Source: an archaeon
GTDB lineage: Archaea; AGJL01; Methanococci; Methanococcales; Methanocaldococcaceae
NCBI GenBank assembly: GCA_024278985.1
Contig: JAJRSC010000016.1
Coordinates: 1-58,410 of the forward strand
Reading direction: 5' to 3'
Length of the DNA stretch: 58,410 nt
In this document: piece by piece, positions 1 to 14,604 of the stretch
Layout of the letters: each line of letters starts with the position of its first letter
Numbering within the stretch: position 1 is the first letter of the stretch
The notes under the pieces: generated by a model
What the model was told of the DNA's origin: nothing
The model's input: only the letters and a program-made list of their open reading frames with translations
The model's database searches: none
Position numbers and translations under genes: made by a program

Positions 1-2552
1 TTCTTAAAGCTAGTGGTGTTCCTGTAGTATAGTAGTATGTAGTTGTTTCTTCTGGTAATTCTGTTGCTAATGTTATTGTTACGATAGGATCTTTAACTAA
101 TGTTATTTCCAAAATACCATTTTCATAGATATACCATCCTACTTTACTAGTTATGTCATTTTCTTTTAGTGTTATATTATCTGTACCATTATTTATTGTT
201 ATATTTTTAATATTAAAGTCACCTATAGGAATAACTATTATAGCAAATCCTTTATCTGTAGTATTTGTAACATTTAACCTTATTTCTGAAATAACTTCAT
301 TATTATTTATTTCTGTTTTTACTTCTTTTTTTGTAATATTAAATCCAACTGATATAAGTGGTTTAATACTCTCATTAATTTCTTTAATTACATTGTTGAT
401 GTCATCTTTATTTTTTATAGTTATATATTTTGCTTTTTGTTTTGTTTCATTTAATATTTCAATAACTGTTTTATTAATAGATATATTATTTCCAATAATT
501 GGAATACTTATTTTATCTCCAGTATTAAGGGTTAATATAGTAATATTATACTCATCACCAATAATAAAATCTATATTGTTAATATTATTTTCTATATCAT
601 TGTTAATATTTACATAGTTTTTAATAAACTCTAAATTAACCATTTTATTATCTATATAAACCTTTAAAAATTTGTATCCATATATATCTGATAATACAAC
701 ATTTTTTATTATTGCAGAGTAAGTATTGTTAGTTGTATTAAAGGTAATCTCTGCTAATTCAAAATCTCCAGTTTTTGAAAGATTATATCCACTTATAAAT
801 AATGTATTGTTAGATACATTCCAATAATAAGTACCTATTGCTGTAACATTTAAGACTGATAAATTTTTTAATGAAATGTATATATCATACCCACCTAATG
901 CTCTTTCTCTATTAATTCCACAAACTTCTATTTTTGCTTTTATAATTCCATTATTATCTGAAACTTTATACATTTTTAATAATACTGGAGTTTCAACGAC
1001 TTTAACAGTTTTAACAACTTTGTTATCAGATTCATTTTCTTCTTTAATATTATTTAGAGTATCTGCAACTACAACAATAGTATATGTATTTAACTCATTT
1101 GGTGTCCAATTAAAACTTATAGTTTTTGACTCACCAACATTTAATGAATTTATTATAACACTTCCAAGTTTTTCAGTATTTACATAAACACTGACATCAA
1201 AAGGTTCTTTTATATCTTGATGTCCATTATTTATTATAGTTACATTTATAGGATTATTTACTCTATATATTGCAGGATTATTAACATCTACTTTTAAAAT
1301 TTTAATATTTGGTCCTTCAACTGTAACAATTGCTGGATTTATATAAATTTTATTAAATTTGTAACCATTAGCATCAGATACTTTAATATCTGCTAAGTTA
1401 ATCTCGGAACTACCTATATTTACTGCCTTAAATGTAGCTCTTGCAATTATTGTTGGAGTAGTTATATTTCCATCTAATATACTAAAGATTACTTTTCCAT
1501 TTTCAAAGGTTATATTTTCTAAACCTTCAGATGCATTTATTAAAAACTCAAATTTTGTACAATTTAATATCTCAGGATTATATGTTAAGATTCCATCAAT
1601 CCCTTTAGCAGGTCTTTTATCAGTAATATTATCTAATTTAATATCCACTGTAAATGTATCATTTATTTTTACTAATGTTGATGATGGAATTAATTTTATT
1701 TGTATTGGTTCTTCAATTGCACATAAGGTTTTAACATCCTTATTATTACTTTCATTATATTCTATTATAAGATTATCTGGATCCACTACTGCAACTACTG
1801 TATAATTTCTTTCTTCAGTAGGTATAAATGTAAAGTTTATTTCTTTAGATTCATTAACTTTAAGACCATTAATTACTTTTGTTCCAAGTTTTTCAGTATC
1901 TACAAATACACTAACAGTAATATTATTTGTTATATCACTTTCTCCAACATTTTTTACTAATACTGGAATTATGTTATCTTCATACGCTTTTAGAGTAGTT
2001 TGAACGACATTTACAGTTAAATCATAGGGGGAAAGTATTTTTACATTTGAATTTCTCACAACTAAGTTATTCTTATCTACTTTCCATGTGTAGTCTCCAC
2101 CAGAGTTAGATATTACAGTTCCACTTAAGGATATTGATGTATTATCTGAAGGTTTTAATGCTTTAAACTTTAAAGTTGCTATTGTAAAGTTTCCATAAGG
2201 ATAGTTATTAAACCATGACAAGCTAATATATACTCTTCCATTTTCAACAGAAATATTCTTAAGATTTGCACTATTAGCAATATCACTTAAAACAATATCA
2301 TTTTCAGTTATGTTTAATAAACTTGAATTAAAGTATATATATGTTTCAAATCCACCACAATATCCAGAATAGTTATTATAACCATCTGATATTGTTCCAT
2401 TTGGGACATTTTTTACTTCTAAAGTTAAGTTAAAACTTTGTCCCATCTTTACTACAACATTTGATGGAACTAATTCTACTGTTACATTTTCTCCATAAAC
2501 TCCAATAAAGGATATCATTAAAATTGATAATAATATCAACTTCCACTTCATT
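1..2552 (-). CDS. Secreted cohesin/CARDB-domain surface protein (3' end beyond window)
   Basis: About 850 residues are visible and the frame is open to the left edge, so the C-terminus is missing. The ATG at 2552 follows a GGTGA ribosome site. Residues 1-20 are a signal peptide. Three cohesin-like beta-sandwich regions (about 22-165, 278-405, 515-640) alternate with CARDB-like segments (about 170-270 and 410-512) that end in the typical 'N-N-G/D' and 'T-V-V-D' strands. Many N-x-S/T sites suggest glycosylation. The first cohesin is very similar to that of the protein at 12571-14604 (shared core SANLK..S.ENG...S..WFNNYP). It is probably a cell-surface scaffold; the neighbouring gene encodes a dockerin protein, its likely partner. 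Cohesin assignment is from sequence pattern; the partner is inferred. Confidence 0.8.
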
Positions 2553-2662: not shown

Positions 2663-4036
2663 TTATCCTGCAGTATATGGTACTGCTGTATTATTATCAG
2701 GATAATATCTTAAGAAATAGTGTGTAGTTCTACCTTTAAATACTTCTGGATGAATTATTGTTCCTAAATCCCATAAAACATCATCAGTGTTCAACAATCC
2801 CAGTTGCCAGTAGTCATCACTTATACAGAATAACCTACCGTTTTGTACTGCTTTGAAGTACTCATATCCTGGGTGGTCTTCTTTGAATGTTGATAACCAC
2901 TCTGTACTTGATGGTACTACCCATATATCTGCATTCTTAGCTCTTTCTGCAAAGGTTTCATAACTTATACATGCACTTCCAGTTCCTGGAATATCTTTAA
3001 ATATGTAATCTCCATGACAATCTTCCATTATCGCCTTAGCAACGTATGACTGTGCTTTTGGAACATAAGTTCCTCCAAAACTTGGATAATTTTTACCCCA
3101 TGCTACTAATGGTCTGTCTGTATTTCTTGTTAATCTTCTAACATCTAATGATCTCTTTACTATTCTTGTAAAGTATTTTTTTGCAACATCTTCCTTGTTG
3201 TAAAATGCTGCAAACAACTTTACCCATTCACATCTAGCAAGATAGGAATCTTCTAAGTATTCTGCATCAGCGACATAAGTTAAGTTCAACTCTTTACATT
3301 TTTCAATTACTGCGTCTCCACTATATCCTGGATAGACAAATATAACTTGTGGTGAGATATTAAGGATTAAATCATAGTTTGGATTGTATGTTGAACCAAC
3401 ATCAATTATTGAACCATTTTCTAGACCTTCCTCAATATTTTTAAAGTACCACTTATATTGTTTACCCCACATTATTCCTTTTACTGAAGCAATTACTGAA
3501 CCATCATTATTTATCGCTTCCATTAAAGCTATTTCTGTAGAACTCATTACAACAACTCTTTTTAAAGGAACATTAATTACTTTATCATATTTTCCTTTAG
3601 CCCATGAAGGAATTGGTTCAGTTTCATTTTTTAATAAAAATCTTTGTCCAGTAGCATCTACTACTATTTTATATGCATATGGTTCTCCATTATAGGGATT
3701 TACTTCAATACCATTTTTATCGTAGTAGGTTATCTTTATATTTTTAGCGTAGACGATAGGTTCTCTTAATTTTTGATAATTATCAAAGAGATAGACCACA
3801 TCTGCAATATCAATTGAACCATCTGCATTTATATCCCCATCTTCCAAACTAAGGTTTCTATGTTTGAAAAGATAGACTACATCTGCAATATTAATTGAAC
3901 CATCTCCATTTACATCTCCGAACCTATGGTTATAGTCTCCTGGAGTAATATCTTTCCATGTTAATGCATTTACATCTGAATATATAGGTATAAATATTAA
4001 AAAAGCTATAGCTATATACCAAATATTTTTTATCAT
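2663..4036 (-). CDS. Dockerin-fused periplasmic-type substrate-binding protein (corrinoid/metal-chelate family)
   Basis: 457 residues. I start at the ATG at 4036, seven bases from a GGTGAT site; an ATG 12 bases upstream lies inside that site. Residues 1-24 form a Sec signal peptide with no lipobox cysteine. Residues about 30-90 are a type I dockerin with two calcium loops, DVNGDGSINIAD and DINADGSIDIAD, each followed by an Asp-Val-Val-Tyr-Leu-Phe helix. From about residue 150 it matches the PF01497 fold (FhuD/BtuF-like: V-V-V-M-S-S-T near the start of the first lobe, then a long linking helix and second lobe). No permease or ATPase gene is nearby. No C-terminal membrane segment is seen, so the dockerin is the only visible tether. 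Ligand is unknown; the cobN/cbiZ context suggests a corrinoid or other tetrapyrrole. Confidence 0.9.
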   Translation of the reverse strand: MIKNIWYIAIAFLIFIPIYSDVNALTWKDITPGDYNHRFGDVNGDGSINIADVVYLFKHRNLSLEDGDINADGSIDIADVVYLFDNYQKLREPIVYAKNIKITYYDKNGIEVNPYNGEPYAYKIVVDATGQRFLLKNETEPIPSWAKGKYDKVINVPLKRVVVMSSTEIALMEAINNDGSVIASVKGIMWGKQYKWYFKNIEEGLENGSIIDVGSTYNPNYDLILNISPQVIFVYPGYSGDAVIEKCKELNLTYVADAEYLEDSYLARCEWVKLFAAFYNKEDVAKKYFTRIVKRSLDVRRLTRNTDRPLVAWGKNYPSFGGTYVPKAQSYVAKAIMEDCHGDYIFKDIPGTGSACISYETFAERAKNADIWVVPSSTEWLSTFKEDHPGYEYFKAVQNGRLFCISDDYWQLGLLNTDDVLWDLGTIIHPEVFKGRTTHYFLRYYPDNNTAVPYTAG

Positions 4037-4120
4037 TAATATCACCATTTGGAATTTTAAATATTTAAAATTAATACTGTAAAGATATTATGTCATAAAT
4101 TATATTTTAAAGGATTACAA

Positions 4121-4808: not shown

Positions 4809-7800
4809 ATGATAAAAATAGGGTTTGTTTCTACAGTAGATAGTGATGATTTGGTTTTTGAAGAGGCATATAAAGAAGTAAAAAAGTATGGAATTGAATT
4901 TAAAATTTTGGATTATAAATGTAACGAGAAAGAGTTTAAAGATTTTTTAGAGTTTATTAAAGATGCTAACATTGTATTTACAAAACTTATGGTAGGAAAA
5001 AAAGCCTTTAAATACTTTGATGAATTAAAAGCATTTGTTGATAAACGTAATATTCCATTTCTTCCACTCCCTACATTAAATGAAGTTCATCCAGATTTGG
5101 ATGATGCTACAACTGTAAGTGAGGAAGTTAAATTAAAGGTTATCAAATATTTGGGATATGAAGGAATTGAAAATTATAAAAATCTCTTATTATATTTAGC
5201 AAATAAATTTGGAGATAAAAATATTCCTTATAAAGAACCAAAGCCCATGCCATGGCAAGGAATTTATTATAAAGGAAAATACTTTGAAACCTTAAATAAC
5301 TATTTAAATTATTTAAAAAAAATTGATAAAAAAATAGATGGAAAACCAATTATTGGAATTTTATTTTACAGAAATTGGTTTATTGCAAATAATATTGATT
5401 ATCTTAACGATTTAATTAATGTTATTGAGAATAAAGGAGCAATACCTGTTGCTGTCTTCACATCACATTTAAAAAATGAATTGGGGGCTATTGGGACATT
5501 AGAAGTGTTTAAAAAATTTTTTTATAAAGATGGCAAACCATTTATTCATACTTTAATAAACACAACTATGTTTACCTTATCTATGGGAGTTAAGGCAGAT
5601 ATCCTAAAAGATGAACCTGAATTTTTAAAAGAGTTAAATGTCCCAATCTTGCAGGGAATTATAAGTACTGGATTTATTGAAGATTGGGAAAAATCAATAT
5701 CTGGAATAAATCCAATTGATTTAGTTATAGGAATGGCAATGCCAGAATTTGATGGAGCAATAATACATTTCCCAATAGGTGGAAAGAAAAAGGTTAAGGA
5801 TGGAGATGTTGGAGTTCCAATTATAAAATATAAAGCAATAAAAGATAGAACTGAGAAAATAGTTAATTTAGCATTGAAATATGCAGATTTAAAGTTAAAA
5901 CCAAACAAAGAGAAAAGAATTGCAATAATTTTCCATAACTATCCACCAAGGAATGATAAAATAGCAAGTGCTTTTGGATTAGATAGTCCTGAAAGTGTTG
6001 TCAATATATTAAAAAAGTTAAAAAATAGAGGTTTTATAGTCGATGAAATTCCAAAAAATGGAACTGAACTAATTAAAAAAATGTTAAATTATGCAACAAA
6101 TGATAAGAGATTTTTAACTGAAGAGATGATAAAAAAAGCTGTAGGAAAAATAAAAAAAGAAGATTATGAGAAATGGTTTAATTCTCTCTCTAATAAAGTT
6201 AAAGAAGAATTAATTAAAAATTGGGGGGAAATTCCAGGAGAAGTTATGAATTTTGATAATAACTTAATTATTCCAGGAATAATTAATGGAAATGTTTTTA
6301 TCTCAGTTCAACCACCAAGGGGCTTTGGGGAAAATCCTTCCGCCATTTATCATTCTCCAGATATGCCACCTACTCATTACTACATTGCTTTTTATAAATG
6401 GATTAAAGAAGTTTTTAAAGCAGATGCTATAATGCATATAGGAAAACATGGAAGTTTAGAATGGTTGCCAGGAAAAGGTGCAGGTTTATCAAGAGATTGC
6501 TATCCAGATATTTGTATGGAATTGCCAAACATCTATCCATATATTGTAAATAATCCTGGAGAAGGAACTCAAGCAAAGAGAAGAAGTTATGCAACAATTA
6601 TAAGCCATTTAATTCCACCAATGACAATATCTGAGTTGTATGGAGATTTAGAAGAATTAGAAAAGAATATTGATGAATACTATGAAACTGAAAATAAAGA
6701 AAAGAAAGAGTTTTTAAAGAAAGAAATTTTGAATAAAATTAAAGAATTAAAGCTGAATGAGGACTTGATGGATGGGAAAGTTATAGATGAGGAAATTAGT
6801 GAAAAAAACTTTGATAAATTGTTAAATAAAATCCATGATTATTTAGAGGAATTAAAAAATAGGCAGATAAATGAAGGATTGCATATAATGGGAGAACCTT
6901 TGGAAGAGGAGAAGTTAATTAATATGATATTTATGATTATCAGATATCAGTTTAACTACTTGGAGATTCTATCTAAAATTTTAGGGTATGATTGGAATAA
7001 ATTAAATGAAGAAAAAGGAAAAAAACATAAAATTATTGATAAAATAAATAAAATTGGAATAAATCTAATAAAAGAATATATGAAATATAATTTTGATGAA
7101 AATAAAATTGAGGAATTAAAAACCATAAAACCTAATTCTGAACTAAAAGAAGTTTTAAAAATTATATCAAAAATATATAGAAATTTAATGATGGTAAATG
7201 AAGAGATTGAAAATGCAGTAAATGCCTTAGAAGGAAAATATGTTCCTCCAAAAATAGCAGGAGCACCAACAAAAGATATAAACTGCCTCCCGACAGGAAG
7301 AAACTTCTATTCTTGCAACCCTCAAGAAATACCAACAAAATCTGCTTATGAAATGGGAAAGAAATTAGCTAATGATTTAATTAATAAGTATTTAAAAGAA
7401 GAGGGAAAGTATCCTGAGTATATTGGAATTATTGTCTGGGGTTCTCCTACAATGAGAACAAAGGGAGATGATATTGGGGAGATTTTATATTTATTAGGGG
7501 TTAAACCAGTTTGGAATAAGATGGGGAGAGTTGTTGGTTTAGAAGTCATACCATTAGAAGAGTTAGGAAGGCCAAGAATTGATGTAACTTTAAGAATTAG
7601 TGGTTTATTTAGGGATACTTTTCCACAAGTTATTGATTTAATAGATGAGGCAATAAAAATGGTTGCAAACTTAGATGAGCCAGATGACCTAAATTTTGTT
7701 AAAAAACATTACAAGCAGGAAGTTATGGAAAAAATAAAGAAAGGAATTGATGAAAAAACAGCAAGAGAAACATCTCTATATAGAATATTTGGATGTAAAC

Positions 7801-8498
7801 CTGGATGTTATGGAGCTGGAGTTGCAGATTTATTAACTGAGAAAAATTGGAAATCATTGGAGGATTTGGCAAAGGTTTATGTTGAATGGGGAGGTTATGT
7901 TTATGGAAAAGGAATTCATGGTATTGAGGCAAAGGAAGAATTTATTAAAAGGTTATCAAAGATTGAGCTAACTGTTAAAAATGAAGATAGCCAAGAATGG
8001 GACATTTTTGAGGGAGATGATTTCAATAGTTATCATGGTGGGATGATTGCAGCTGTAACTTTCTACTCTGGTAAGCAACCAAAAAGTTATATTGGAGATA
8101 CTTCAAATCCAAATAAGATAAAAACAAAACATTTGAAAGAGGAAGGAAAGCAGATATTTAGAACAAAAATAATGAATCCAAAGTGGATTGAAGGGTTGAA
8201 GAAGCATGGCTATAAGGGGGCAAGTGATTTCTCAAAGTATATTGACCATATCTTTCAATGGGATGCAACCTCAAATATAATAGATGACTGGATGTATCAA
8301 AAAATTGCTGAAAATTATGTTTTTGATAAAGAAATGGAAGAGTTCTTTAAAGAAAACAATCCTTATGCCTTATTAAACATAACTGAAAGGTTATTAGAAG
8401 CTATAGAAAGGGGAATGTGGAAGACAGATGAAGAAACAAAAGAAAAGTTAAGAAAAAAATACTTAGAAATTGAGGGAATGATAGAAGAGAAATTATAA
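4809..8498 (+). CDS. cobN: CobN/ChlH-type cobaltochelatase large subunit
   Basis: 1229 residues, the usual size for CobN/BchH. Family blocks are visible: PPRGFGENPSAIYHSPD, MHIGKHGSLEWLPGKG, the PNIYPYIVNNPGEGTQAKRR block, and near the C-terminus CKPGCYGAG and FQWDATSNIIDDW. CobN inserts cobalt into hydrogenobyrinate diamide in aerobes with CobS/CobT; in anaerobic archaea, which insert cobalt early with CbiX/CbiK, the role of CobN homologues is unsettled. HmuS, a bacterial CobN relative, removes iron from haem, so dechelation is a possibility here. No AAA+/MIDAS partner lies in the window. It is followed 26 bp later by the radical SAM gene, probably one operon through cbiZ. Confidence 0.9.
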   Translation: MIKIGFVSTVDSDDLVFEEAYKEVKKYGIEFKILDYKCNEKEFKDFLEFIKDANIVFTKLMVGKKAFKYFDELKAFVDKRNIPFLPLPTLNEVHPDLDDATTVSEEVKLKVIKYLGYEGIENYKNLLLYLANKFGDKNIPYKEPKPMPWQGIYYKGKYFETLNNYLNYLKKIDKKIDGKPIIGILFYRNWFIANNIDYLNDLINVIENKGAIPVAVFTSHLKNELGAIGTLEVFKKFFYKDGKPFIHTLINTTMFTLSMGVKADILKDEPEFLKELNVPILQGIISTGFIEDWEKSISGINPIDLVIGMAMPEFDGAIIHFPIGGKKKVKDGDVGVPIIKYKAIKDRTEKIVNLALKYADLKLKPNKEKRIAIIFHNYPPRNDKIASAFGLDSPESVVNILKKLKNRGFIVDEIPKNGTELIKKMLNYATNDKRFLTEEMIKKAVGKIKKEDYEKWFNSLSNKVKEELIKNWGEIPGEVMNFDNNLIIPGIINGNVFISVQPPRGFGENPSAIYHSPDMPPTHYYIAFYKWIKEVFKADAIMHIGKHGSLEWLPGKGAGLSRDCYPDICMELPNIYPYIVNNPGEGTQAKRRSYATIISHLIPPMTISELYGDLEELEKNIDEYYETENKEKKEFLKKEILNKIKELKLNEDLMDGKVIDEEISEKNFDKLLNKIHDYLEELKNRQINEGLHIMGEPLEEEKLINMIFMIIRYQFNYLEILSKILGYDWNKLNEEKGKKHKIIDKINKIGINLIKEYMKYNFDENKIEELKTIKPNSELKEVLKIISKIYRNLMMVNEEIENAVNALEGKYVPPKIAGAPTKDINCLPTGRNFYSCNPQEIPTKSAYEMGKKLANDLINKYLKEEGKYPEYIGIIVWGSPTMRTKGDDIGEILYLLGVKPVWNKMGRVVGLEVIPLEELGRPRIDVTLRISGLFRDTFPQVIDLIDEAIKMVANLDEPDDLNFVKKHYKQEVMEKIKKGIDEKTARETSLYRIFGCKPGCYGAGVADLLTEKNWKSLEDLAKVYVEWGGYVYGKGIHGIEAKEEFIKRLSKIELTVKNEDSQEWDIFEGDDFNSYHGGMIAAVTFYSGKQPKSYIGDTSNPNKIKTKHLKEEGKQIFRTKIMNPKWIEGLKKHGYKGASDFSKYIDHIFQWDATSNIIDDWMYQKIAENYVFDKEMEEFFKENNPYALLNITERLLEAIERGMWKTDEETKEKLRKKYLEIEGMIEEKL

Positions 8499-9395: not shown

Positions 9396-10145
9396 ATGAT
9401 TGGAGTTTCAACAAGCATATTTTTAAATTCTAATAAAAAGTTAGAAAATGCTCTTTCCTTTTTAGAGAATAAAACAAAATATGTAGAACTTATTTGTGAT
9501 GGATACTTAAATGTTATGGAACATACTGAAATTCCTCTATCATACAATTTAAAATATACATTACATTGTCCTCTTACAGATATGAACCTATCATCTTTTA
9601 GAGAGAAAGTTAGAAAAACAAGTATAGAGATTGTTGAAGATATTTTAAAAGTTGCTGATGTTGTTAATGCCTCTTTAATTGTACTACATCCAGGATATTG
9701 TGTATTTAAAGAGGACTATTTAAAGGCATTAAATTCTCTAAAAAAATCTTTATATGAATTAAATAAACTTCAAAATGAATATTCTATACAAATAACAATA
9801 GAGAATATGCCATCCTATAGTATGTTTATGTTTAGAGAACCAAATGAAATTATTGATACTTTAGGAGATATTGGAATAACTTTTGATATTGGCCATTCTT
9901 TTTTAAATAAAAATATTGAAAAATTTTTAGATAATAACCTTATAAAAAAAATTTATCACATTCATATCCATGATAACAATGGAGTATTTGATGAACATCT
10001 ATGTATAGGAAAGGGCAAGATTGAATTTGATAAATATAAAAAGAAGTTAAAAAAAATAAATTGTATAAAAATGATAGAAATGCAGTATAAAAGTATTGAT
10101 GATTTAGATTTATGTATTGATAGAGTTAAAAGATTGTTCAGATAA
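9396..10145 (+). CDS. TIM-barrel protein, xylose isomerase/AP endonuclease 2 family
   Basis: 249 residues. Family landmarks are L-H-C-P-L near residue 50, L-I-V-L-H-P-G-Y at ~90, I-T-I-E-N-M-P at ~131, T-F-D-I-G-H at ~160 and I-H-I-H-D-N-N-G at ~188, ending in G-K-G-K-I-E. These His/Glu/Asp positions form the usual divalent-metal site of sugar-phosphate isomerases, epimerases and endonuclease IV relatives. The reaction cannot be assigned. Position between the radical SAM gene and cbiZ suggests a role in the same cofactor pathway, for example on a nucleotide-loop or sugar-phosphate moiety (inference). Confidence 0.75.
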   Translation: MIGVSTSIFLNSNKKLENALSFLENKTKYVELICDGYLNVMEHTEIPLSYNLKYTLHCPLTDMNLSSFREKVRKTSIEIVEDILKVADVVNASLIVLHPGYCVFKEDYLKALNSLKKSLYELNKLQNEYSIQITIENMPSYSMFMFREPNEIIDTLGDIGITFDIGHSFLNKNIEKFLDNNLIKKIYHIHIHDNNGVFDEHLCIGKGKIEFDKYKKKLKKINCIKMIEMQYKSIDDLDLCIDRVKRLFR

Positions 10146-10187: not shown

Positions 10188-10205
10188 CTCTTTTAGGTGA
10201 TCAAA

Positions 10206-10982
10206 TTGGAGGATGTTTTAAAAATGGATGATTGGAGAGCATATAAAATTTCCCATACTGTTGAAATTAATGGAGATATTGAAAAAACAAAAACCTTAAT
10301 AATAGAGTTTGAAAAAAGAAGAAAAGTTTTATCAACAAGAGAAGGTTTTAAGATAGTTAAATATGTTGGTAACCATTCAATCCCTGTACTATTTTGGGAT
10401 AAGGTTCATAATTATAAGGATTATGAAGACCATGTCTTAAAGAAAATTGGAATTAAAAAAGAGGATATTGCTTTATTATCAACTGGAGCTGATATGGATA
10501 ATTTAGCAGTTGCTAAAGAAGAATTTGATGAGTTTTATACAATTGCTTTTACAACTGCAGGAGCAAAGTATAATGCTGTTAGATTAGGAGATGAAGAAAC
10601 AGATTATATTGAAAAGGATTTCAAAACATACAAAATTGAAAATGGAAAATTAATTCCTAAAGAAGAAGTAGGAACAGTTAATATTATTTTAATAACTAAT
10701 GCAAACTTAACTGATGGAGCAATGGCAAGAGCAATTATAACTATAACTGAGGCAAAAACAAATGCTTTTCAAGAGTTGGATATAAGAAGTACTAAACATC
10801 CAGAACTTCAAGCTACAGGGACAGGAACTGATAATATTATTATTGTTAAAGGTTTTGGTAGATGTGTTAATTATACTGGAGGACATACAAAGATTGGTGA
10901 AATGATAGCGAAATGTGTTAAAAAATCCGTTATAGAGGCATTAATAAAGCAAGACAATATAAAAATTAATAAAAATTTTTAA
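10206..10982 (+). CDS. cbiZ: Adenosylcobinamide amidohydrolase
   Basis: About 258 residues. CbiZ cleaves the aminopropanol side chain of adenosylcobinamide or pseudo-cobalamin to give adenosylcobyric acid, the archaeal route for salvaging and remodelling foreign corrinoids. Diagnostic blocks are present: LLSTGADMDNLAVA, the TDGAMARAIITITEAKTNAFQ region, QATGTGTDN and the C-terminal G-G-H-T-K-I-G-E. I choose TTG at 10206, five bases after AGGTGA; a GTG at 10197 overlaps that site and an ATG at 10224 lies further inside. It closes the cobN gene group and is the clearest evidence that the locus concerns corrinoids. Confidence 0.9.
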   Translation: MEDVLKMDDWRAYKISHTVEINGDIEKTKTLIIEFEKRRKVLSTREGFKIVKYVGNHSIPVLFWDKVHNYKDYEDHVLKKIGIKKEDIALLSTGADMDNLAVAKEEFDEFYTIAFTTAGAKYNAVRLGDEETDYIEKDFKTYKIENGKLIPKEEVGTVNIILITNANLTDGAMARAIITITEAKTNAFQELDIRSTKHPELQATGTGTDNIIIVKGFGRCVNYTGGHTKIGEMIAKCVKKSVIEALIKQDNIKINKNF

Positions 10983-11175: not shown

Positions 11176-11712
11176 ATGAAAAAAAAATTAATTCTATTGT
11201 TAGTTCTTATGTTTCAAATATGTTTTGCAGTTGATATATCAGTAAATGCTCCTTCAAAAGTTCAGCAAGGAGAAATTTTTACATTAGAAGTTTATGCTAA
11301 AAATGTATCAAATTGTGGAGGATTTGAATGTGATTTATATGTTTCAAATAATTTAAAAATATTAAATGTTACATCCTACAATGTTGGAGCAGATTACAAT
11401 TTAACAATAAATAAAAATAGTTTTGCAGCAATACAGTATGCTTTTTTGACAAATCCAAAGAATGAGGACTTTAAAGTTGGAGAATTTAAAATAAAAGCTC
11501 TAAAGAGTGGCAATGCAACAATAGTAGTTAAAGCTGTTGCCTCAGATAGTGAAGGAAATGCAATTAAAATTCCAGAGAAAGTTATAAATCTTAAAGTTGA
11601 AAGTAATCAAGTAAATGAAGAAAAAAAAGAAACAGGTTTTTCTTTTAATATTGTAGTGGTTATATTTGCAATTATTTTAGTTGGTATATTGATATATATG
11701 ATTAGAAAGTGA
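11176..11712 (+). CDS. Membrane-anchored single cohesin-domain protein
   Basis: 178 residues: signal peptide 1-19 (cleavage near C-F-A/V-D), one cohesin-like domain at about 20-145 (V-Q-Q-G-E-I-F-T-L-E-V ... G-G-F-E-C-D-L-Y ... V-G-E-F-K-I-K-A), a short charged linker, and a C-terminal transmembrane helix at about 156-175 ending in I-R-K. This arrangement shows the cohesin outside the cell, held by the helix. First of three such genes with gaps of 6 and 15 bp, so one operon. It is the simplest candidate receptor for the dockerin protein at 2663-4036; that pairing is inferred. Confidence 0.8.
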   Translation: MKKKLILLLVLMFQICFAVDISVNAPSKVQQGEIFTLEVYAKNVSNCGGFECDLYVSNNLKILNVTSYNVGADYNLTINKNSFAAIQYAFLTNPKNEDFKVGEFKIKALKSGNATIVVKAVASDSEGNAIKIPEKVINLKVESNQVNEEKKETGFSFNIVVVIFAIILVGILIYMIRK

Positions 11713-11718
11713 TTAACT

Positions 11719-12555
11719 ATGTATAGATATATAATTTATTTTTTAATTCCAATGTTTATATTGTTAAATGTTGTTTATAGTGAAGATATCTATGTTAGAT
11801 TAATTCCTGAAGAAGTAGTATCTGAAGGAAATATAATTAAATTTAATATATCTATTGAGAACATTCCAAAGGTCGGTGATATTAAATATTATGATGGGAC
11901 GGAGGATGGAGGTTGTAAAGGAGTTGATATTTATATTAACTATTCTCCTGATTATTTAAAACCTTATGGGTTTAACTGGAGTGATATTTGTAAAAATGAA
12001 AAAATAAAATCATACGAATTTAAAAATGGTACATTTGTATTAAGTATCTTATTTAATAAACCTATTGAAGAAAATTTCTACATTGGGGAAATTATGTTTA
12101 TTCCTACTAAAAAAGGTGAGACATATGTTAATATATCTGGAGTTATTAGTTCAGCTTTAGGAATAAAATATGATGGTATTCAAGACTATTATGATTATTA
12201 TACAAAAACATTTAAAAAGTATCCTAAAACCAAATTTTTTGGAGCAAAGGTTATTATAAAAGAAATTAATGAGACTAATTTAACAAATACAAGTTTAAAA
12301 CTAAGTGAAACTATAGAAGAGAAAAATTTTGAGAATATCAAATCAACATCAACTTCTAACATAATTAATAGAATCTATATAAATCCACAAGTAAGAAAAC
12401 CAGAAGTTATTGTTAAAGAAATAAATATAACTGAGTATAGGCCAATAGTAAAAATAATTGTAAATAAAAAAAATGATTATGACATATCAAATTTATTTTT
12501 TGGAATAATTTTAGGAATTATATTTGGATTTATTTTTTCAAAATTTAAGAAATAA
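11719..12555 (+). CDS. Membrane-anchored cohesin-like surface protein
   Basis: 278 residues. Signal peptide 1-21, a cohesin-like region at about 22-175 (opening D-I-Y-V-R-L-I-P-E-E-V-V-S-E-G, later Y-I-G-E-I-M-F-I-P), a Thr/Ser/Asn-rich linker, and a C-terminal transmembrane helix near 256-274 followed by Lys/Phe residues. It is 6 bp downstream of the previous cohesin gene. The cohesin match is weaker than in its neighbours, and the insertion near residues 52-75 containing two cysteines is unusual. Role as scaffold or receptor is inferred. Confidence 0.7.
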   Translation: MYRYIIYFLIPMFILLNVVYSEDIYVRLIPEEVVSEGNIIKFNISIENIPKVGDIKYYDGTEDGGCKGVDIYINYSPDYLKPYGFNWSDICKNEKIKSYEFKNGTFVLSILFNKPIEENFYIGEIMFIPTKKGETYVNISGVISSALGIKYDGIQDYYDYYTKTFKKYPKTKFFGAKVIIKEINETNLTNTSLKLSETIEEKNFENIKSTSTSNIINRIYINPQVRKPEVIVKEINITEYRPIVKIIVNKKNDYDISNLFFGIILGIIFGFIFSKFKK

Positions 12556-12570
12556 AATTAGGGATAATTA

Positions 12571-14604
12571 ATGAAATTAAAGATAAAAGTAAAGATTTTA
12601 ATATTAATTTTATTTTTAGTATTACAAATAAATTTTGGAATTAATGTTTTATTAATTCCCAATAATATCAGTGTAAAAGAATATGATTCTTTTAATATAA
12701 CATTAATTGTAAATACTAACGAACAATTAGGAGGATTTGAGGATATTATTTATATTCCTGATGGGTTAAATATAACTAAAGATGATATCATTTTAAGTGA
12801 TACTGCTAATAGTGCAAATCTTAAGGATGTCTCTATAGAAAATGGTAAAATAGATATTAGTTTAGTATGGTTTAATAATTATCCATCTGGAAACTTTACT
12901 ATTGCAACACTTAAATTTAAAACATTAAATAATGGGACATATAAAATAATTCAAAGTCCTACTTTATCAGATACAAATGGTAATGAAATAAAAAATGTAT
13001 CCTATAATTCAGTTGTAGTAAATATTATTGGGTTAAATTCAACTATTGTAGATATAATTCCTATAAATCCAACAATAAATAATAGTTTTGATGTTCTTGT
13101 TTCAATAAAAAATGCAAAAGAAAATATTTACAATATTAGTGGAAGTATCTACTATCCAAATTTAAAAATTGTAAATTTAGATTTTTATTATTTTGAGGAT
13201 AATATTACTAATGTTAATTTGTGGTATAATAATGATAGTTTAAGTTTTTTTGTTAAATTAAATACCTCAAAAGATATATTTAACTTAATGAAATTAACAT
13301 TTTTTACAAGTAAAGAAGGTAGTTATATTATTAACGCAACTATAAAAATAAATGGAAAAAATGTAATTGTAAATCCTGCATGTTTTACACTTGGAAATAT
13401 AACTGTTGAAAAATATGTAGGTTTTCCAATAAACGAAAAAAATATTTCTTATGGAGATAGTGGATTTATATATATTAAGGCAGAAAATATTGATTCGAAT
13501 ATATCAGAAATTAGAGGGAATATATCATATAACTCAACATTATTGAATGTTAGTGATATATCTACAAGTTTACAAACTCTTGAAAAAAATTTGTCTATTA
13601 AAAATAATACTATTAATTTTTATATTAAAATAAATGGAAGTGTAAGTAATAATTTTAATATATTATCTTTTTGGATAAGACCACTTATAAATAGGAATAT
13701 AACAACAGAACTTAAGATTTTAAATATATCTTTATTAGATATAAATGGAAGTAATGTAAATGTTCCAGTAAAGGATAGTTTAATTATCCATATAATTCCC
13801 AAAAATCTTACAGAAAATATTTCAAATATAAATAATACACCACCAAAGGTATATTTCGTATTTGAAGTTATTGACGATTATACTGTGAAATTTTATTCTT
13901 TATGTTATGATAAAGAAAATAATACTCTGTACTATTATTGGAATTTTGGAGATAACACTACATCAACAGATATAAATCCAACTCATACATATAAAAAAGA
14001 TGGACTTTATATTGTTAAGTTATATGTTAATGACTCATTTGGAGCTATTGGATATGATGAATGTTTAATTAATATAAAAAAATTAAATCCAATAAATATT
14101 ACACTTAGCAACACTACAATATATCCAACTAATCATAACATAACAATATATTGTAATATAACTTTAAAAAATCCTTTTTCTAAAAGGATTTATGGAGATA
14201 TTCAGTTTTTAGATTATGCTAATTATAAACCAAACAAAACATGTATAACTTTTGAATTATTACCTAATGAAACAAAAGTATTTTCAGTTCCTATAAATAT
14301 CTCAGGTCCTACAGAGATAAAGGGATATGTTGAATATTATATTCCAAATAAAAGAGTAATTAAATATGTTTGGAATTTTAAAAAAGATATTAATGTCTTA
14401 AAGATAAATAAGATAAGTTATAGAGATTACTATTATAATATTTCACTTAACCAATCAAAAGTTATTATAAAAATTAATAAAATTTTAAAAAATTATACTA
14501 TTACAAAAAATATAGATATTGAAAATAATAATCTAAGTATTTTAATGTATTTAATAGGGTTTTTAATTGGCTTTTTAATAATTTATAAAAAGAAAAAATT
14601 TTAA
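12571..14604 (+). CDS. Membrane-anchored multi-cohesin protein with PKD domain
   Basis: 677 residues. Signal peptide 1-23; cohesin-like regions at about 24-150, 155-280 and 285-412; a PKD domain at about 424-506 (Y-Y-W-N-F-G-D-N-T ... P-T-H-T-Y ... G-L-Y-I-V-K-L-Y-V); a beta domain to about 600; and a C-terminal helix at about 655-672 followed by K-K-K-K-F. Rich in N-x-S/T sites. The first cohesin closely resembles the first cohesin of the protein at 1-2552. Several cohesins in one chain would let it hold several dockerin partners, as in a scaffoldin. Last gene of the cohesin operon. Confidence 0.8.
   Translation: MKLKIKVKILILILFLVLQINFGINVLLIPNNISVKEYDSFNITLIVNTNEQLGGFEDIIYIPDGLNITKDDIILSDTANSANLKDVSIENGKIDISLVWFNNYPSGNFTIATLKFKTLNNGTYKIIQSPTLSDTNGNEIKNVSYNSVVVNIIGLNSTIVDIIPINPTINNSFDVLVSIKNAKENIYNISGSIYYPNLKIVNLDFYYFEDNITNVNLWYNNDSLSFFVKLNTSKDIFNLMKLTFFTSKEGSYIINATIKINGKNVIVNPACFTLGNITVEKYVGFPINEKNISYGDSGFIYIKAENIDSNISEIRGNISYNSTLLNVSDISTSLQTLEKNLSIKNNTINFYIKINGSVSNNFNILSFWIRPLINRNITTELKILNISLLDINGSNVNVPVKDSLIIHIIPKNLTENISNINNTPPKVYFVFEVIDDYTVKFYSLCYDKENNTLYYYWNFGDNTTSTDINPTHTYKKDGLYIVKLYVNDSFGAIGYDECLINIKKLNPINITLSNTTIYPTNHNITIYCNITLKNPFSKRIYGDIQFLDYANYKPNKTCITFELLPNETKVFSVPINISGPTEIKGYVEYYIPNKRVIKYVWNFKKDINVLKINKISYRDYYYNISLNQSKVIIKINKILKNYTITKNIDIENNNLSILMYLIGFLIGFLIIYKKKKF

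Follow-up and report, generated by a model that had tools for sequence, protein, structure and literature searches.

Dockerin-bearing receptors of a BtuCDF/FecBCD-type importer in Methanococcales, with candidate cohesin sockets in the S-layer and the membrane

We focus here on a substrate-binding protein, PBP1, which is encoded near the start of a stretch of 58,410 nucleotides from an archaeon of the Methanocaldococcaceae (contig JAJRSC010000016.1 of assembly GCA_024278985.1; this whole stretch is referred to as the window). In an ORF scan of the window, the reading frame of PBP1 spans 2663..4048 on the minus strand. The in-frame methionine at 4036 is the likely start in preference to 4048, giving a gene at 2663..4036 that is delimited by the ORF, by Pfam and by alignment with 12 orthologs. 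The encoded protein consists, in this order, of a signal peptide, a dockerin, a linker and a Peripla_BP_2 domain. From Met 4036 the N-terminus reads MIKNIWYIAIAFLIFIPIYSDVNA followed by LTW, and is a predicted signal peptide (3965..4036, minus strand) with a V-x-A-like end; cleavage is predicted to fall approximately after DVNA. The binding domain (2813..3433, minus strand) is that of a class III binding protein and is recognized by PF01497 with 72.8 bits against a cut-off of 27.5, which makes PBP1 a Peripla_BP_2 protein. A single tRNA is the sole Rfam match in the window, and no riboswitch was found near the genes of the PBP1 locus.

In archaea, a lipid or a membrane helix normally anchors receptors of this class. 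The sequence and the anchor tables show that the signal peptide of PBP1 has no lipobox cysteine. There is not a single cysteine among residues 1-89, so the cysteine that ends the signal peptide of an archaeal lipoprotein is missing, and a Kyte-Doolittle scan of the whole protein revealed no hydrophobic helix beyond the signal. What follows the signal closely is the first of two dockerin calcium loops of 12 residues each (loop 1, DVNGDGSINIAD, 3881..3916; loop 2, DINADGSIDIAD, 3800..3835; both minus strand). The first-pass annotation had described PBP1 in just these terms, as a protein with a signal lacking a lipobox, no C-terminal helix and two canonical calcium loops after the signal, and both sequence and hydropathy agree with it. 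A lipid or membrane anchor, which would speak against anchoring by the dockerin, was sought and is absent from the sequence of the dockerin form.

The two repeats of PBP1 carry D1, N3, D5 and D12, the residues that define a type I dockerin. The profile PF00404 places the protein at its threshold of 22.9 bits, barely exceeding it in the search of the genome to which PBP1 belongs (23.0 bits, E 1.2e-4) and falling barely under it when the protein is searched alone (20.6 bits). When the retrieved loci (635 proteins, none shorter than 150 aa) were screened for two copies of a strict loop pattern (D.N.D..[IVLF]...D), 47 proteins were recovered, and all 47 are PBP-type binding proteins or their fragments. 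A chance match as the source of the double loop in PBP1 was rejected because every double-loop protein is of this receptor kind. Loop positions 1, 3, 5 and 12 are invariant in 47/47 dockerins, although the search pattern itself fixed positions 1 and 12 and, loosely, also 3 and 5. Position 11 agrees between the two loops of one dockerin in 87% of cases vs 55% after shuffling (p 1e-4). Clostridial dockerins can bind in two ways, and the agreement at position 11 is compatible with symmetric dual-mode binding. In the genome of PBP1, which is 86% complete, the dockerin matches are PBP1 and one further protein, the receptor PBP2 on contig C28; the first-pass annotation had called for such a search. 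Most dockerins detected in the surveyed genomes belong to receptors of this importer. In a third dockerin-bearing receptor of 627 aa (L080:758-2641, G010:C138), the binding domain is shortened and the C-terminus is extended by unrelated sequence. Elsewhere, a large surface protein of the CARDB type, not a receptor, ends in a dockerin (L155:1465-3045, G023:C2), with the start of a cohesin-like gene directly downstream.

The next gene downstream of PBP1, on the same strand, encodes a cohesin scaffold (2..2551, minus strand) with a signal peptide and at least three cohesins alternating with two CARDB domains; its C-terminus is lost at the contig edge. Pfam detected no carbohydrate-binding module on it. 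Cohesin module 1 lies at 2066..2491, module 2 at 1325..1711 (PF00963 above cut-off; custom profile 2e-36) and module 3 at 641..988 (custom profile 1e-22), all on the minus strand. Pfam alone missed many cohesins, recognizing 38 of 72 modules, and had to be supplemented by a custom profile and by structure comparison. With the profile built from these 72 modules, the 22 best PDB matches were all cohesins (top E 1e-11), one from Archaeoglobus among them. For the AlphaFold2 model of module 1 (pLDDT 94.5), the first Foldseek match was 2xdh, a cohesin of Archaeoglobus fulgidus, to which VIA-align superposed it with a Z of 16.4 and an rmsd of 1.6 over 119 residues; the Z for 6kgc was 16.7. The modeled module thus has the jelly-roll fold of a cohesin, and with profile and model combined the assignment of the predicted modules as cohesins is firm. 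The whole 830-residue scaffold used as a fold query returned mainly Ig-like repeat proteins and was uninformative.

Across the loci of relatives, no gene adjoins PBP1 more constantly than the scaffold, which runs in the same direction. Its orthologs have 1-5 detectable cohesins (2-5 in complete copies). An S_layer_C domain (PF05124) was found on the scaffolds of eight relatives with 31-42 bits against a cut-off of 23.9, and in the complete copies tested it sits at the C-terminal end. From sequence, the missing C-terminal piece of the present scaffold is probably found at the end of contig C5 (G000:C5:74944-75399), which overlaps the start of the window by 26 bases; contig C17 is a competitor for the join, with 141 bases in common with the window start. 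Positions 1-141 of the window are identical to the terminal part of another gene for a surface protein (G000:C17), and this repeat of 141 bases probably caused the assembly to break at the start of the window. In G005, a 1024-aa membrane protein with no Pfam match (L074:3528-6602) occupies the position that the scaffold has in relatives.

Three further cohesin genes are located 7-10 kb from PBP1 (11176-14604); each product has an N-terminal cohesin along with its signal peptide, and a membrane helix at its C-terminus. The first, coh1 (11176..11712, plus strand), is a membrane-tethered single cohesin with its helix at residues 158-176, and the second (11719..12555, plus strand) has the same composition, with the cohesin at 28-154 and the helix at 256-274. 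The third (12571..14604, plus strand) is a large protein in which the N-terminal cohesin is joined by two cohesin-like repeats and a PKD domain before the helix at 654-672. The scaffold that the first-pass annotation had presumed therefore has a candidate in the gene adjacent to PBP1, and three more cohesin genes lie within reach. Single-cohesin genes are found near PBP1 in most loci of relatives.

No permease is encoded near PBP1 within the window. FecCD permeases of the same genome are on contigs C3 and C28, and a matching ATPase is on C1. On C28, two BtuC/FecCD permeases follow PBP2. In two relatives (G001 and G035), the genes form a single run of PBP1, scaffold, PBP2, permease and permease, and in two others (G003 and G033) receptors, cohesins and permeases are likewise close together. 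A shared transporter is likely because the permease pair follows PBP2 and stands near PBP1 in relatives. This part of the earlier proposal, that PBP1 lacks a co-encoded permease and uses a shared one, stands in outline; the expectation that the permeases would be without a binding protein of their own does not, as the C28 pair has the dockerin receptor PBP2. On C3, the genome encodes a third binding protein that has kept a clear lipobox, and dockerin genomes therefore probably still make lipoproteins.

How the receptors are anchored in related organisms was surveyed for PBP1 and PBP2 in 36 Methanococcales genomes. Wherever the N-terminus could be read, dockerin and lipobox exclude each other, every copy having one and not the other, and the lipobox cysteine is confined to orthologs that lack the dockerin. 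In one dockerin copy (G034), the signal contains a cysteine (SISC) ahead of the customary TYA cleavage motif, and this copy was counted as non-lipobox; distant signal-less copies in G004, G008, G011 and G013, probably cytosolic, were left out. The lipobox forms number ten, five of PBP1 and five of PBP2, and come from the same five genomes (G002, G004, G007, G008 and G013). A genome-wide profile search detected cohesins in 24/25 dockerin genomes vs 0/5 lipobox genomes (Fisher p 4e-5, with kinship ignored), counts that are not independent because each gene swapped its anchor once, in a single lineage. The exception is G014, a near-complete genome with a dockerin receptor lacking a lipobox and with no cohesin detected. 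Its receptor (L135:8053-9324) has VV at positions 10-11 of the second loop. The suggestion that the dockerin takes the place of the usual anchor is thus strongly supported by five relatives whose orthologs have a lipobox, no dockerin and no detectable cohesin. In the trees, the lipobox copies form one clade per gene with support of 100/99 in both, and both receptors swapped their anchors in the same lineage. The PBP2 lipobox clade is nested among dockerin forms, which makes a change from dockerin to lipid the likely direction, although the root of the PBP1 tree is less certain. The PBP2 copies of the group to which the present genome belongs are on a branch separate from the one that contains the lipobox forms. 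The anchor swap is a strong natural experiment, though not many independent ones.

A further relationship was evident from comparing the two receptors with each other. In 15 genomes, identity between the dockerins of PBP1 and PBP2 is 74% when both come from one genome and 64% when they come from different ones (permutation p 1e-4); for the receptor bodies it is 34% in either case (p 0.43). The two dockerins are nearly identical in G012, G023 and G033. Likeness of the dockerins within a genome without likeness of the bodies points to gene conversion or to a partner that both share.

Taken together, we consider it very probable that PBP1 is a lipid-free secreted importer receptor which is held at the surface by its dockerin in co-encoded S-layer and membrane cohesins. 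The parts of this reading that were computed are the domains, the cohesin fold, the lack of a lipobox, the mutual exclusion of the anchors, the co-occurrence with cohesins and the likeness of the dockerins. PBP1 would be exported and its signal removed, after which the dockerin would engage, with calcium, cohesins on the same cell. The scaffold would be placed in the S-layer by its C-terminal S-layer domain, to judge from the complete orthologs, and the other sockets would be the three cohesin proteins tethered by a membrane helix at the C-terminus. PBP1 and PBP2 may use the same sockets as well as one permease pair and ATPase, making up an importer of the BtuCDF/FecBCD type in which ligand would be delivered to the shared permease. 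Receptors could then be exchanged or relayed between S-layer and membrane sockets. More tentatively, the arrangement might be a dock of two tiers, with matching dockerins allowing both receptors to move between S-layer scaffolds, where ligand is captured, and membrane cohesins at the one permease they share, where it is passed on, and with the type of anchor being convertible in evolution, scaffold for lipid.

The weight given to the scaffold may be disputed. It is conceivable, if doubtful, that the true anchoring next to the permease is done by the cohesins with a membrane helix, chiefly coh1, and that the scaffold has another role such as storage or adhesion. In G005 and G006, both near-complete genomes, a coh1 homolog is the sole cohesin gene detected and no scaffold was detected, and dockerins are nonetheless retained on both receptors. 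The scaffold is thus not always needed, and these genomes suggest that a membrane cohesin is the minimal anchor; the proximity of single-cohesin genes to PBP1 in most loci points the same way. However, it is the scaffold that accompanies PBP1 most constantly, and the second PBP1 loop of G005 and G006 has drifted (FT in place of IA), as it might under relaxed constraint. It is improbable that the signal peptide remains uncleaved and is itself the N-terminal membrane anchor, with the dockerin merely clustering receptors. The hydrophobic stretch could span the membrane, but A-x-A-like motifs (VYA, VNA, VFA, AFG) stand at the end of the signals, a short way before the dockerin, and a lipobox on the dockerin-less relatives would then be needless. 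Slightly less probable still is a receptor that is released or loosely held and whose dockerin would connect cells or attach to extracellular matrix. Adhesins often contain CARDB domains, and adhesion roles have been proposed for cohesin and dockerin proteins of ANME archaea and their partners (PMC5244752, PMC10553843); against this, the cohesin genes cluster with transporter genes and most of the detected dockerins are on receptors of this one importer.

Anchoring by dockerin and cohesin can be separated from the question of what is imported. Between PBP1 and coh1, on the plus strand, are a CobN-type chelatase subunit (4809..8498; TIGR02257, 1055 bits against a cut-off of 822), a TIM barrel whose best NCBIfam match is the cobamide-remodeling phosphodiesterase CbiR (9396..10145; 54 bits, under the cut-off of 105) and the adenosylcobinamide amidohydrolase CbiZ (10197..10982; PF01955, 180 bits). 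These neighbors suggest a corrinoid, as does the best model for the ATPase, which is a corrinoid one and under its cut-off. We lean slightly toward a corrinoid as the substrate of PBP1 on this genomic context. An appreciable chance is left to iron or another metal chelate, with anchoring as described, for the best matches of the receptor profile are siderophore and iron-citrate binding proteins, and FecCD permeases are common to both classes of substrate. In G003 (L072:10677-14766), CobN and a radical SAM gene are broken into several frames, as though decaying or misread, with both the receptor and the cohesin genes undamaged.

What cohesins and dockerins do in non-cellulolytic microbes is an open question (PMC5244752). 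For one such system, the cargo is identified here as the receptors of one importer, together with anchors and candidate sockets, and the socket-less relatives with a lipobox on the same receptors provide a natural control. It is suggested that the importer might gather its ligand at the archaeal S-layer. The openly available papers searched contained no mention of dockerins in Methanococcales, although Peer 2009 may have mentioned them earlier.

Compared with the type I cellulosome of clostridia, the system predicted here shares the dockerin loops, the cohesin fold and a multi-cohesin scaffold, the end of which would anchor it at the surface. It differs in that the cargo consists of transport receptors rather than glycoside hydrolases and in that the scaffold ends in S_layer_C instead of SLH. 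Membership in a cellulosome was rejected, the dockerin matches of the genome (86% complete) being two binding proteins with no enzyme cargo. The cohesin 2xdh of Archaeoglobus fulgidus, which is non-cellulosomal, has the same archaeal cohesin fold at 14-17% identity to the scaffold module. Like BtuCDF and FecBCD, the importer combines a Peripla_BP_2 receptor with FecCD permeases and a BtuD/FecE-like ATPase; unlike them, it has dockerin-bearing receptors, two of which apparently serve one permease pair. The closest parallel is found in ANME archaea, for which PMC9012536 describes dockerin-bearing ABC binding proteins along with cohesin proteins of up to five cohesins, and cites experimental archaeal cohesin-dockerin binding. 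Dockerins on archaeal periplasmic binding proteins and scaffold-like multi-cohesin proteins are thus already known, as is a proposed link to the S-layer. The binding proteins it describes are of the NikA/OppA or TroA type and belong to a large inventory of cohesins and dockerins, whereas the Methanococcales have a dedicated Peripla_BP_2 system, a scaffold ending in an S-layer domain and the swap between lipobox and dockerin. What appears to be new, judging from sequence, is a complete locus with a defined cargo, candidate sockets in both S-layer and membrane, and an exchange of lipid and dockerin anchors.
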